A stretch of 39,005 nt of DNA, taken from contig CALVCO010000010.1 of NCBI GenBank assembly GCA_944326095.1, forward strand, positions 1-39,005, read 5' to 3'. A program made the position numbers and the translations under genes. Below the pieces are notes generated by a model that was given only the letters and a program-made list of their open reading frames with translations, ran no database searches and had not been told where the DNA came from. Positions 33,261 through 38,038 of the stretch are shown one piece after another. Origin of the DNA: an uncultured Erysipelotrichaceae bacterium (GTDB lineage: Bacteria > Bacillota_I > Bacilli_A > Erysipelotrichales > Erysipelotrichaceae). Positions within the stretch are counted from its first letter, which is position 1. The number at the start of each line of letters is the position of its first letter.

Positions 33261-34193
33261 ATGGAAGAAAGGTTGATTGAATTAATTGAACTTGCTTTAA
33301 ATAATCATGCAACAGATATTCATTTTACAATTAAAAATGATAAAGTAATAATTGAATTACGTATAAATAAACAATTATATAGTGTAAAACCTAAGAAGAA
33401 TGATGATAAGTTTTATCGTTATTTAATGTATCGAGCTAATTTAGATCTTGCTTTGCGTAGTTTACCACAAACAGGACATTTTAATATAATAATAAAAAAT
33501 AATAAAATTGCTTTACGTTTTGCCTGTTTAAATAATCATGATTTATCTTGTGGAGTATTAAGACTATTAAATAATCATGAGAAGTTAGAAATTGAAGATT
33601 TATGTAATGATTCATATATAATTAATTGTTTTAGAAAAATATGTAATTTAACAACAGGATTAGTGGTATTTAGTGGACCAACTTCTAGTGGGAAAACAAC
33701 TACTTTATATTCGATTTTACAACATATACAAAATAAGAAGATTTATACCTTAGAAGATCCTATCGAAGTATATGATGATCATTATGTACAATTACAAATA
33801 AATGAAGCTAACAATTTTGATTATGCGCAAGGAATAAAACAATTAATGCGCCATGATCCAGACATTATTATGATTGGTGAAATCAGAGATGAGATTGCTG
33901 CAAAAATGGCAATACGCTGTGCTTTGACTGGTCATTTAGTTTTTACAACTATTCATGCTTCTAATTGTTTATTAGCTATTGAAAGATTATTAGAACTTGA
34001 TGTTATGCGATTACAGCTTAAGGATTGTTTAAGTTATGTTTTTAATCAAAGATTAATGAATTATTTTGATGGTTATATTGGAGTTTATGAAGTTTTAACA
34101 CCTGATGATATCAACTATTTTTTTCAATTTGATAGATTACCAATGGAACATGAAGACATTGAAATTAAACTTAAAAAATATCTTAAATATTAA
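33261..34193 (+). CDS. comGA: Competence traffic ATPase ComGA
   Basis: Hexameric PilB/GspE-type ATPase that assembles the transformation pilus from the cytosol. The 310 residues have Walker A GPTSSGKTTT (about 139-148), Asp box TLEDPIE, Walker B IIMIGEIRD and His box LTGHLVFTTIHAS. It is shorter than B. subtilis ComGA but complete in motifs. A strong AAGGAGGG precedes ATG 33261. It is first of a tightly overlapping comGA-comGG operon. Confidence 0.95.
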   Translation: MEERLIELIELALNNHATDIHFTIKNDKVIIELRINKQLYSVKPKKNDDKFYRYLMYRANLDLALRSLPQTGHFNIIIKNNKIALRFACLNNHDLSCGVLRLLNNHEKLEIEDLCNDSYIINCFRKICNLTTGLVVFSGPTSSGKTTTLYSILQHIQNKKIYTLEDPIEVYDDHYVQLQINEANNFDYAQGIKQLMRHDPDIIMIGEIRDEIAAKMAIRCALTGHLVFTTIHASNCLLAIERLLELDVMRLQLKDCLSYVFNQRLMNYFDGYIGVYEVLTPDDINYFFQFDRLPMEHEDIEIKLKKYLKY

Positions 34194-35178
34194 AAAAAAT
34201 GAACATTTATCTTCATTTGATTTATTAGGAATATATAAATTATTACAGACGGGCTTTTCATTTAAAGAAAGTTTAGATTTATTAAATAATAATTCTAATA
34301 ATGATATATTTTTTAGAATTGATGAAAGATTAAAAAAAGGTGAGTTAATTGAAGATTTTTTTGTTGAATACCTTGATGCAAGATATATAGATTATTTTTC
34401 TACATTTATAAAATTTGAATCATTTGCGGTTAGTTTAGGTTTAAGTATAGAGATTGTTCAAGATGATTTAAAACAAAAAAAGTTATATTTAAAAAATCTT
34501 ACTTATCCATTGTTAATTTTAATCGTTACAGTTTTAGGAATATATTTATTTAATATTTTTGTTTTTCCTAATATGATAGAAGTTATGAATACTTTTTCTA
34601 ATGTAGATAATGGTTTATTATATGGGCAAAAAATTTTAAATATGGTAATTAATATAATATTAGTAATAATGATTCTTGTTTTAATAGCTATTTTGTATTT
34701 TAAACAAGAAAAAAATCAAGTTAAGGGTTTTACATTTTTTCAAAAAATTTTTAAACAAAGTTTTTTACATGATTTTATAACTAATGATTTTGTTCGCTTT
34801 TTTTATCATTGTCAAAAAAAAGGTTTATCTACTTTACAAAGTATGAAAATTCTTTGTAACATTCCGCATAAACCATTAGTATCCTATGTAGCTAGAAATA
34901 TAGATGAAAGATTATTAAATGGAGAAATGATGGAAAATGCAATTGATTTAGCTTTTTTAGATCATACTTTATATAAATTTATGATAATAGCGATAAATAC
35001 TGCAAAAATTGAAGAAATGCTTGTAGGTTATATGGAAATAAATGCTTTAAAAGTAGAAAAGAAATGTAAGAAACTTAGTAGAAGTTTACAAATAATATCT
35101 TATGTGATGTTAGGAATTATGTTAGTTTTCGTATATCAAATATTATTGATGCCTTTAGGCATAATATCCAATATATAA
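34150..35178 (+). CDS. comGB: Competence pilus inner-membrane platform ComGB
   Basis: PilC/GspF-type protein that forms the membrane base of the pilus. The 342 residues start with a helical soluble domain (SFDLLGIYKLLQTGFSFKESLDLL), a membrane helix pair near 117-140 and 163-183, a second helical domain, and a last helix near 314-336. The start is uncertain: ATG 34150 lies 44 bases inside comGA with no clear Shine-Dalgarno, and an ATG at 34105 would add 15 residues. Translation is probably coupled to comGA. Confidence 0.88.
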   Translation: MKTLKLNLKNILNIKKNEHLSSFDLLGIYKLLQTGFSFKESLDLLNNNSNNDIFFRIDERLKKGELIEDFFVEYLDARYIDYFSTFIKFESFAVSLGLSIEIVQDDLKQKKLYLKNLTYPLLILIVTVLGIYLFNIFVFPNMIEVMNTFSNVDNGLLYGQKILNMVINIILVIMILVLIAILYFKQEKNQVKGFTFFQKIFKQSFLHDFITNDFVRFFYHCQKKGLSTLQSMKILCNIPHKPLVSYVARNIDERLLNGEMMENAIDLAFLDHTLYKFMIIAINTAKIEEMLVGYMEINALKVEKKCKKLSRSLQIISYVMLGIMLVFVYQILLMPLGIISNI

Positions 35179-35192
35179 AGGGAGGAATAGAA

Positions 35193-35486
35193 GTGAAAAA
35201 GGGATTTACCATGTTAGAAATGATTATTGTTGTTTGTATTTTATCAATATTATTTTTGTTAACTATTCCAAATATTCAAAATGTAATAAATATTGTAGAT
35301 GATAAAGGATGCAAAGCATTAGTAAAAGTAGTAGATGCAGCGATTGTTGAATATAAATTACAATATGATGAATATCCAACAGATATACTTGATTTGGTTA
35401 ATGCAGGATTGTTAAGTGAAGAACAGACACAATGCTCTAATAACAAAACTATAATTGTTTCTGAAGGACAAGCTTATGTTCAATAA
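35193..35486 (+). CDS. comGC: Competence major pseudopilin ComGC
   Basis: Main subunit of the DNA-uptake pilus. The 97-residue precursor has a short basic leader (MKKG) cut by prepilin peptidase before FTMLEMIIVVCILSILFLL, with Glu at mature position 5. The N-terminal helix is followed by a short globular part with two Cys in GCKAL and TQCSN. Start is GTG 35193 after GGGAGG. The prepilin peptidase gene comC is not in the window. Confidence 0.93.
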   Translation: MKKGFTMLEMIIVVCILSILFLLTIPNIQNVINIVDDKGCKALVKVVDAAIVEYKLQYDEYPTDILDLVNAGLLSEEQTQCSNNKTIIVSEGQAYVQ

Positions 35487-35790
35487 AGAGGGCTATACTT
35501 TAATTGATATTTTATTAAGTGTTTTCATAATTAGTACTTTATCTTTGATCTATTTATCATTTAAACCATTTGAAATTAAAGATTATCATAAATTTATGTA
35601 TGATTATTGGTTGAAGCAAACTGAAAGTTTAATAAATGTGCGAAATGAGGAAGTTAATGATGAAAATTGTTTTGTGCCATATCCAATTTATTTTAATGAA
35701 AAAGGGAATGTTAATCAGGCACAAACTATTGAATGTTATGGAAAAGAAATGGTTGTTGAATTGGGATTTGGGCGTTTGGTTGAACGCTAA
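35476..35790 (+). CDS. comGD: Competence minor pseudopilin ComGD
   Basis: Minor pilin, 104 residues. Leader MFNKEG precedes YTLIDILLSVFIIST, so mature residue 5 is Asp instead of the usual Glu. ATG 35476 lies 11 bases inside comGC, consistent with coupling; an ATG at 35455 would add seven residues and give a longer leader. Position in the operon supports ComGD. Confidence 0.8.
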   Translation: MFNKEGYTLIDILLSVFIISTLSLIYLSFKPFEIKDYHKFMYDYWLKQTESLINVRNEEVNDENCFVPYPIYFNEKGNVNQAQTIECYGKEMVVELGFGRLVER

Positions 35791-35995
35791 AGGATTTATC
35801 TTAATAGATGCTTTGATATGCATTGTTATTTGTAGTGTTTGTGTTATGTTAATATACCAGTTAAGCCTTGTTAAAGGACAATATAGCGACATTTATGATG
35901 AGACAAGGAAAATACTAGCACAAGATTCTTTGACTAATGTGGAGCAATTAGAGCCATGGATACAAGAAGAGGTACAACCTACATCGACACCTTAA
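35780..35995 (+). CDS. comGE: Competence minor pseudopilin ComGE
   Basis: Minor pilin. The cleavage site is NAKG before FILIDALICIVICSVCVM, with Asp at mature position 5. The most likely start is TTG 35780 (leader MNAKG, 71 residues); the reading frame is open much further upstream but that part overlaps comGD in another frame and is not pilin-like. It overlaps comGD by 11 bases and comGF by 40. The non-AUG start is uncertain. Confidence 0.7.
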   Translation: MNAKGFILIDALICIVICSVCVMLIYQLSLVKGQYSDIYDETRKILAQDSLTNVEQLEPWIQEEVQPTSTP

Positions 35996-36342
35996 TCGCT
36001 ATTATAATAACTATTACTTTTATTCCCATAATGTTTAATTGTTTAAAAATTAGTTCTAATTTTTTATATAAAAATTTACAAAATGAAATTGGATTAATGC
36101 AAGTTAGAAATATCTTAGCTTTAAGTAAGGAAATATCTTGTGATATGAATACTTTATATTTTACATATGCAAACAATAATTATGAAATATATCAATCAAA
36201 TGATAAATTAATGATGACTCCAGGAACCCAATTTATTTTATGTGATGTAACAAATATTTCTTTTATTAAAGAAGGAAAGGTTATATTTATCTGTTATGAA
36301 GAAGATGGTCAAATGCAAAAAAGAGCGCTCATGGTGGCATGA
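35956..36342 (+). CDS. comGF: Competence minor pseudopilin ComGF
   Basis: 128 residues. Leader MDTRRG precedes TTYIDTLIAIIITITFIPIMF, again with Asp at mature position 5 and a Thr at position 1 in place of Phe. The remaining part is a small beta-rich domain with a run ending GKVIFICYEEDGQ. Starts inside comGE and its end overlaps comGG by 47 bases. Confidence 0.75.
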   Translation: MDTRRGTTYIDTLIAIIITITFIPIMFNCLKISSNFLYKNLQNEIGLMQVRNILALSKEISCDMNTLYFTYANNNYEIYQSNDKLMMTPGTQFILCDVTNISFIKEGKVIFICYEEDGQMQKRALMVA

Positions 36343-36673
36343 AGGATTTATCAGTAATTATTTTTTGTATATATTTTATATAATTGTCAATTTAGTAATA
36401 TTTCAAGCTATGATATTAAGTAAACAATTATTAATTTTACAAAATATTAAAACCTATTCAAATGTTGAAAAATATCAGTTACAAGTATTTAATTTCATAA
36501 ATAATAATTTAAATAAATTAGAAAATGGTAATTATCAATTTCAAGATATAAATATTGATGTTACATTATCAGAAAATCAGCTGTTGGTTAAGGCATATGA
36601 ACCAATAAATATGATATATATCTTCAGTATACAAGATGATAATATAATAGATTATCAAAGATACAAAGGCTAA
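36296..36673 (+). CDS. comGG: Probable competence minor pseudopilin ComGG
   Basis: 125 residues. A candidate cleavage site is HEG before FISNYFLYIFYIIVNLVIF, with no acidic residue at mature position 5, as is also known for tip pseudopilins of related systems (GspK class). The rest is short and Asn-rich. Assigned by last position in the comG operon. No terminator is seen after it; the efp promoter begins 20 bases on. Confidence 0.65.
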   Translation: MKKMVKCKKERSWWHEGFISNYFLYIFYIIVNLVIFQAMILSKQLLILQNIKTYSNVEKYQLQVFNFINNNLNKLENGNYQFQDINIDVTLSENQLLVKAYEPINMIYIFSIQDDNIIDYQRYKG

Positions 36674-36692
36674 GTATATATAATTATTTACA

Positions 36693-36720
36693 TTGACAAA
36701 TATCATTTTTAATTTACAAT
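36693..36720 (+). promoter_or_regulatory. Sigma-A promoter of efp
   Basis: A perfect TTGACA (36693-36698), 16-base spacer and TACAAT (36715-36720). Confidence 0.7.
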
Positions 36721-36746
36721 ATATAAGTACAAAAGGAGAAATAATA

Positions 36747-37304
36747 ATGATTATTGTAAATGATTTAAAACCAGGAACATCATTTGAATATAATAAAGAA
36801 ATTTATACAGTTTTAGATATAGCTCATAATAAAACAGCAATGCGTCAAATGATTGTAAAAGTTAAAGTTAAAAACTTACGCAGTGGAGTAATTAATGAAT
36901 TATCTTTTACTGGTGGTGATAAAGTAGAACCTGCACATATTGAAAAAAGAGAAATGAATTATTTATATGATGCTGGTGATTCATTGGTATTTATGGATAA
37001 TAGTACATATGAACAAATTGAAATTCAAAAATCACGTCTTGAATGGGAAATGAAATTTTTAAAAGCAAATGATAATGTTACTATTTCTATGTATGAAGGT
37101 GAAATATTAGGAATTATCTTACCTGATAAAGTTGAATTACAAATTGTTGAATGTGAATCAGCTGTTAAAGGAGATACTGCTACTAGTGCTACTAAGAATG
37201 CTAAAGTTGAAACTGGATTAGAAATTAAAGTTCCATTATTTATTGAAAATGGTGAAATGGTATTAATTTCTACAGCAGATGGTAAGTATTCTGGAAGAGC
37301 ATAA
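36747..37304 (+). CDS. efp: Elongation factor P with altered tip loop
   Basis: EF-P relieves ribosome stalling at polyproline stretches. The 185 residues have the normal three-domain length, from MIIVNDLKPG through the SFTGGDKVE segment to a C-terminal domain with VKGDTATSATKNAKVETG. The start is ATG 36747 after AAAGGAGA; the longer open frame from 36693 crosses the promoter. The conserved tip loop that normally reads PGKG (Lys32 in B. subtilis) reads TAMR at 30-33, so residue 32 is Met and 33 is Arg. Length of the loop is unchanged. Confidence 0.93.
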   Translation: MIIVNDLKPGTSFEYNKEIYTVLDIAHNKTAMRQMIVKVKVKNLRSGVINELSFTGGDKVEPAHIEKREMNYLYDAGDSLVFMDNSTYEQIEIQKSRLEWEMKFLKANDNVTISMYEGEILGIILPDKVELQIVECESAVKGDTATSATKNAKVETGLEIKVPLFIENGEMVLISTADGKYSGRA

Positions 37305-37348: not shown

Positions 37349-38038
37349 ATGCCAAGAAAAAGAATTCACAAGAAGCCTAAATGGCAAATAAATAATAACA
37401 AAAAACATCCATTAATAATCAAACATACTAAATATATTAATAACGAAATTACTCAAGAAAATAAGGCTACTTTTGAATTATCAAATTCTTCCAAAGTTTA
37501 TGATTTATTCTTTTCTAAAATTAATACTTTTAATAAGTCTTTAATTAGTCATATTTCCTTTATTTTTATTTATAGTTATTTAATAACTAAAATTTTATAT
37601 GATGCAATAAATAGTGAAGGATTTAGTTTTTACCGCCTTTCATTTACCCAAGCATCAGGCATTTTTATAACTATTAGTTTTTTTATTTTAGTTATTAGTT
37701 TAGCTAGTTTAATTATTTTATATTTTGTAAATAGAAAAAATAATTTATCTAAATTTTATATTAGTTTTGGACAAAATATATTTTTTAGTATGATTGCAAG
37801 TTTATTATTTGCCATATTTGTAACCATATGCAATGTGGGAATAATCAATGGAATGATATTAATATTCATTATTTTGATTATCTATATTTCTTGTAGTATC
37901 TTAGGTATGGATGATAATAAAAATCATTATGATCAAAACTTGCTAAATATGCTTATATTAATTGTTAGTATATTTGTTTTAATTAGTTTGTTTTTTGGTT
38001 TATTTGGTAGTAATATTACTCATTTATTTACAGTTTAA
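37349..38038 (+). CDS. Polytopic membrane protein of unknown function
   Basis: 229 residues. The first 60 are very basic (MPRKRIHKKPKWQ) and cytoplasmic by charge. Five membrane helices follow at about 64-87, 97-126, 137-163, 164-187 and 198-221, with short polar loops. No family recognised; the arrangement recalls Yip1-like proteins, but nothing specific supports that. A strong AAAGGAGA precedes ATG 37349 after the efp terminator. Confidence 0.7.
   Translation: MPRKRIHKKPKWQINNNKKHPLIIKHTKYINNEITQENKATFELSNSSKVYDLFFSKINTFNKSLISHISFIFIYSYLITKILYDAINSEGFSFYRLSFTQASGIFITISFFILVISLASLIILYFVNRKNNLSKFYISFGQNIFFSMIASLLFAIFVTICNVGIINGMILIFIILIIYISCSILGMDDNKNHYDQNLLNMLILIVSIFVLISLFFGLFGSNITHLFTV

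Follow-up and report, generated by a model that had tools for sequence, protein, structure and literature searches.

The efp locus and its tip loop

The window, i.e. the whole 39,005-nucleotide stretch of DNA analysed here, comes from an uncultured gut bacterium of the Erysipelotrichaceae and contains a complete gene for elongation factor P (EF-P), which lies between a comG-type competence pilus operon and two further ORFs (Table 1). The ComGA-like gene is named after the best NCBIfam match of its ORF, a match under the cut-off. The 229-aa ORF has no NCBIfam match and few relatives beside efp elsewhere, and relatives of the 276-aa ORF are present in 80 of 188 efp loci. The promoter-like site just 5′ of efp is the best in the region and is known from its consensus match, such sites being about as numerous in shuffled sequence in a consensus scan.

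Table 1. Features of the efp locus, with the dehydrogenase gene found beside a PGKG-type efp (locus L001)
Feature	Position	Strand	Basis or remark
comG-type competence pilus operon, 5′ of efp (ComGA ATPase-like, ComGB-like, ComGC-like and small pseudopilin-like ORFs)	33261..36673	+	
Promoter-like site, TTGACA, 16 nt, TACAAT, 5′ of efp	36693..36720	+	11/12 consensus matches
Ribosome-binding site AAGGAG, 8 nt 5′ of ATG	36733..36738	+	direct reading
efp, elongation factor P, 185 aa, non-PGKG (TAMR) type	36747..37304	+	complete ORF
β3-β4 tip loop, codons 27-33, HNKTAMR (Met32, Arg33)	36825..36845	+	translation, alignment, model
ORF 3′ of efp, 229 aa, membrane-protein-like	37349..38038	+	
ORF 3′ of efp, 276 aa, C-terminal transmembrane segment	38099..38929	+	
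Short-chain dehydrogenase gene	L001:359-1105	-	beside PGKG efp L001:1126-1683 (-)

The efp product exceeds the cut-off of the EF-P equivalog model TIGR00038 (226 versus 185.8 bits) and carries all three Pfam domains (EFP_N, EFP OB and Elong-fact-P_C). An AlphaFold2 model based on a 46-row alignment (pLDDT 85), whose best PDB matches are EF-Ps (9a6x_B with a TM-score of 0.92; S. aureus 6rk3 with 0.87), predicts a normal EF-P fold with a seven-residue β3-β4 loop, residues 29-35, between strands 18-28 and 36-43.

A lysine (or arginine) at the tip of this loop, together with its modification, is taken as the heart of the rescue of stalled ribosomes by EF-P; the B. subtilis protein has a PGKG loop with 5-aminopentanol on Lys32. 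In the window EF-P, residues 27-34 read HNKTAMRQ, and TAMR stands in place of PGKG without insertion or deletion. The gap-free loop with Met32 and Arg33 given in a preliminary description of this DNA is confirmed by the translation and by alignment with S. aureus EF-P (6rk3), in which PGKG falls under TAMR.

Among 50 Met32-type sequences, the loop occurs as NKTAMRQM (30), NKTAMRKM (12), NKTAMAKM (7) and NKTAMRGM (1), such that Asn28, Lys29, Thr30, Ala31, Met32 and Met35 are invariant and the loop ranks among the most conserved parts of the protein. This conservation is accompanied by synonymous codon variation: four codons for Thr30, four for Ala31 and five for Arg33 are used in 21 TAMR genes, which were drawn from a Pfam set collected without regard to the loop, the group itself being still defined by TAMR. 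It had been suggested that a different tip residue, perhaps Arg33, does the work of the missing lysine. Arg33 is a plausible replacement, as it is present in 43 of the 50 sequences, but the remaining seven have Ala33 followed by Lys34, and the proposal was therefore widened to Arg33 or Lys34, one or the other of which positions is positively charged in every sequence.

The dN/dS ratios of the window gene to two copies from the same genus, the range to which the comparison was confined because of indels and saturated dS beyond it, are 0.04 and 0.10, and the gene is thus under strong purifying selection. Together with the conservation across genomes, these values rule out a sequencing error or a pseudogene, in agreement with the earlier judgement that the gene is unlikely to be dead.

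Phylogeny and distribution of the non-PGKG EF-Ps

In a tree built without the loop columns, the non-PGKG sequences form one clade (88 rows, support 100/98; also examined with a 93-row set) whose sister is a PGKG family, f10; the exceptions outside it are family f9 and the Thermus sequences. The clade comprises the housekeeping EF-Ps of Erysipelotrichales, of Mycoplasmatales-like genomes in which TGA encodes Trp, and of two further families, and mollicutes fall within it, whereas PGKG was observed in all sampled Bacilli families outside it other than f9. Lys32 is absent from every member. Part of the clade has Arg32 (NKTAR, NKQGR and SKSGR loops), including families f5 and f16 with SKSGR, SKTGR, TKTGR and SKQGRG loops, several genomes of which read TGA as Trp. 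Met32 marks a branch made up of f1, f8 and f19 (support 99/87); beyond Erysipelotrichales, f8 has NKTAMRK in all ten sampled members, and f19 has NKTAMRQ or NKTAMAK. The TARS sequences, which occur in part of f1, are nested in this branch, in a region of the tree that is partly resolved, and may represent a return to Arg32. Additional loop variants inside the clade are NKQARG and NKQGRL (L079 in genome G006, L089, L091, L094, L095, L097, L098 and L303), domain I of the NKQGRL variants being strongly altered.

The tree is most simply explained by one loss of Lys32 on the stem of the clade and a separate loss in f9. The four f9 sequences (L294, L311, L312 and L313) have the loop HVKSARSAA or HVKSARSGA and apparently lost Pro30 and Lys32 independently, outside the main clade.

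Among 113 Erysipelotrichales genomes, 60 have non-PGKG EF-P only, 43 have both types and three have PGKG only, two of the last being 79-89% complete. EF-P was not found in the other seven, including G021 and G060 (98-99% complete), in which neither an EF-P domain nor any candidate was detected, reflecting either true loss or assembly gaps. In 21 Erysipelotrichaceae genomes, of which 18 are at least 90% complete, no EF-P other than the TAMR type is present. Among named cultured organisms, TAMR alone occurs in three genomes of Holdemania and in Dielma fastidiosa, Anaerorhabdus furcosa and strain OH741, and both copies are present in Bulleidia extructa, Traorella massiliensis and strain NK3D112. 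The preliminary description had proposed to see whether TAMR is conserved across Erysipelotrichia and relatives; TAMR or TAMA was found in dozens of independent genomes that include cultured type strains. These counts do not show the pattern named there as contrary evidence, a canonical second efp combined with loss of the TAMR gene in close relatives.

A search of the window genome itself (1.61 Mb, 99% complete) for another efp, also foreseen in that description, did reveal a canonical copy, so the TAMR gene is not the only efp of this organism. The second copy has the loop HVKPGKGAA, lies on another contig (G000:C3) and is directly followed by a short-chain dehydrogenase gene. In all 48 Erysipelotrichales PGKG loci, efp is immediately followed on its own strand by such a dehydrogenase gene, at a distance of 19 bp or less, and the PGKG paralogues of the order form their own clade with a long stem; the accessory pair of PGKG efp and dehydrogenase is absent from most relatives. 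In B. subtilis, YmfI is the EF-P 5-aminopentanone reductase. The efp-linked dehydrogenase resembles both FabG and YmfI, scoring below the curated YmfI cut-off and higher with FabG-like models. Since the YmfI model does not single it out, its role is presumed from linkage, by which it would likely modify the PGKG EF-P, itself probably of the modified, Bacillus-like type. A third EF-P-like ORF was observed in genome G027, which already has PGKG and TARS copies (L096, G027:C35:3675-8839; 173 aa, loop YIKAGNGAG); it is very divergent, with about 31% identity.

The presence of a canonical copy in the window genome could suggest that the TAMR gene is a duplicate that evolves neutrally or is in decay. 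This idea is highly improbable, as both distribution and selection refute it: many near-complete genomes have TAMR and no other EF-P, dN/dS is 0.04-0.10, and it is the TAMR copy that is linked to comG throughout the order, the PGKG copy being patchy. Genes of the comG type adjoin the non-PGKG efp in 137 of 188 loci, whose flanks are limited. On account of this linkage and of the tree, the TAMR gene is considered the efp of the order by position and by vertical descent, and the PGKG gene an accessory one.

Comparison with known EF-P types and evidence on modification

Compared to lysine-type EF-Ps (B. subtilis; S. aureus 6rk3), the window EF-P is clearly homologous in sequence and shares the fold, the three domains, the length, the loop length and the equivalog model, but Pro30, Gly31, Lys32 and Gly33 are all replaced. 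It thus has Thr30 instead of the Pro two residues before the tip and Met32 instead of Lys32, and lacks the residue for aminopentanol attachment. Arginine-type EF-Ps rhamnosylated by EarP (Pseudomonas and Neisseria, with SKSGR-like loops) also lack Pro at −2, and sister families in the window's clade have Arg32 and even SKSGR-type loops like them; the window EF-P differs in having Met at 32 and its arginine at 33. Thermus thermophilus EF-P (1ueb, 4v6a; loop QKLGRGG) is likewise non-PGKG, with Arg32 and a loop of canonical length, but it falls outside this clade and keeps Gly at 31 and 33.

The unmodified tip of EfpL/YeiP (E. coli, 8s8u), which is of the Thr-Ala-Arg type (SPTARGA), also resembles the window tip, and EfpL co-occurs with a modified lysine EF-P much as the window EF-P stands beside a probably modified lysine copy. 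However, the window EF-P lacks the loop extension of EfpL and its conserved Pro three residues before Arg, has Met at 32, and belongs to a type that is the main and often the only EF-P. An EfpL orthologue is ruled out by the loop length and by the EfpL models NF003392 (131.4 bits versus a cut-off of 216) and TIGR02178 (117.6 versus 264 bits).

A methionine at the tip has been counted before: of 1166 EF-Ps, 0.77% have it, and none of these has Pro at −2 (Volkwein 2019, PMC6544042), a combination that agrees with the window EF-P, and it is also mentioned in PMC11611912. The main text of PMC6544042 gives the frequency of these proteins, and does not describe their taxa, loop or paralogy. The earlier impression of an undescribed loop type therefore holds in that we found no analysis of Met-tip EF-Ps, and fails in that the Met tip itself was on record. 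In the literature surveyed, mainly open-access main texts, EF-P loops of Erysipelotrichales and mollicutes are touched on in remarks in PMC4014445, PMC6544042 and PMC11611912, and neither the lineage nor the NKTAM[RA][QK]M loop was found described there, nor was its occurrence as the only EF-P of a genome or the pairing of PGKG efp with a dehydrogenase gene.

Whether such a tip is active is not self-evident, given that the single changes K34M, P32S/G and G33A/S each abolish the function of E. coli EF-P, in which no PGKG position can be altered without loss or a sharp drop of activity (PMC6544042). One alternative is that the tip has given up its action at the peptidyl-transferase centre, the protein mainly binding and positioning tRNA or the L1 stalk or preferring other stalling motifs, with polyproline left to the PGKG paralogue, a YfmR/Uup-type ABCF factor or YebC2. 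The individual need for the PGKG positions in E. coli fits this alternative, as do the shifted motif preference of EfpL, itself a relative of EF-P (PMC11611912), and the ability of ABCF and YebC2 factors to share the task (PMC11381351, PMC11990639). We nevertheless consider it quite unlikely, because the loop is among the most conserved parts of the protein, which would not be expected of a non-functional tip, and because the PPP motif of valyl-tRNA synthetase (ValS) and an ordinary PP content are retained in genomes with the sole copy. The motif is kept in all ten tested genomes without a PGKG copy (seven TAMR and one each TAMA, TARS and TARA), all relatives of the window genome, to which the check was restricted because the latter (G000, 99% complete) gave no valS match, probably owing to an assembly gap. 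Its retention bears indirectly on whether the TAMR EF-P relieves polyproline stalling. PP dipeptides show no depletion relative to PGKG-only relatives in these small samples (0.59 versus 0.49 of the shuffled expectation).

A second alternative retains an active tip that is modified, for example on Arg33, Lys34 or Met32, by an enzyme other than those known, and so stands in for modified Lys32. Most studied EF-Ps need modification, more than half of bacteria lack a known modifying enzyme (PMC6544042), and the rigid conservation of the loop would suit a modification recognition site. On the other hand, comG rather than any conserved enzyme gene adjoins the non-PGKG efp, and the charged residue moves among positions 32, 33 and 34 in the clade, whereas a modification site would be expected to stay in place. 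Mollicutes, which fall in this clade, likewise speak against such an enzyme: every one of them has EF-P, which M. genitalium and M. pneumoniae cannot do without, and they lack homologues of the enzymes that carry out lysylation in E. coli (PMC4014445). Regarding known enzymes, no EpmA was detected above the TIGR00462 cut-off in any of 15 genomes although the control was recognised; the frame that holds the single sub-threshold match in each genome is about 500 codons long, as expected for lysyl-tRNA synthetase. The EarP profile PF10093 matched in none of 116 genomes and was silent in the control genome as well. Overall, a modified TAMR tip appears unlikely.

The proposed tip and its implications

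With a probability of roughly 0.6, we regard the window EF-P as the vertically inherited housekeeping EF-P of Erysipelotrichaceae, whose tip would have been rebuilt around Met32 and Arg33 or Lys34 and most likely works unmodified. According to this proposal, the PGKG loop, including Lys32 and the Pro at −2, would have been lost by the clade in a single event; the TAMR protein would dock between the P and E sites as usual, and its jointly rebuilt tip would act without modification. Many of these lineages keep no other EF-P copy, so that modified Lys32 would not be needed in them, and EfpL is known to be active with a bare, unmodified Arg33, there in a longer loop (PMC11611912). The shift of positive charge among positions 32, 33 and 34 within the clade weakens a precise role of Arg33. 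From the sequences compared here, the absence of modification, the tip contacts and the polyproline activity of the TAMR EF-P are all presumed.

Three solutions to the chemistry of the tip are otherwise recognised, namely modified lysine, rhamnosyl-arginine and the extended EfpL loop. It is an evenly balanced proposal that a branch of Bacilli, comprising Erysipelotrichaceae and two further families, uses a fourth one, an unmodified active tip of Met32-Arg33 or Met32-Lys34, which in some genomes would share labour with an accessory PGKG EF-P and its own modifying dehydrogenase.

A large natural lineage has replaced all four PGKG residues, often with no other EF-P in the genome, and its natural variants (TAMR, TAMAK, TARS, NKQGR and SKSGR) provide material for asking what the tip of EF-P must do. 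Genomes with both copies may offer a system of two EF-Ps in one cell, one of them probably modified and the other probably not. In addition, the lineage argues against taking Lys32 for granted when EF-P modification is annotated or targeted in gut Bacillota and mollicutes.
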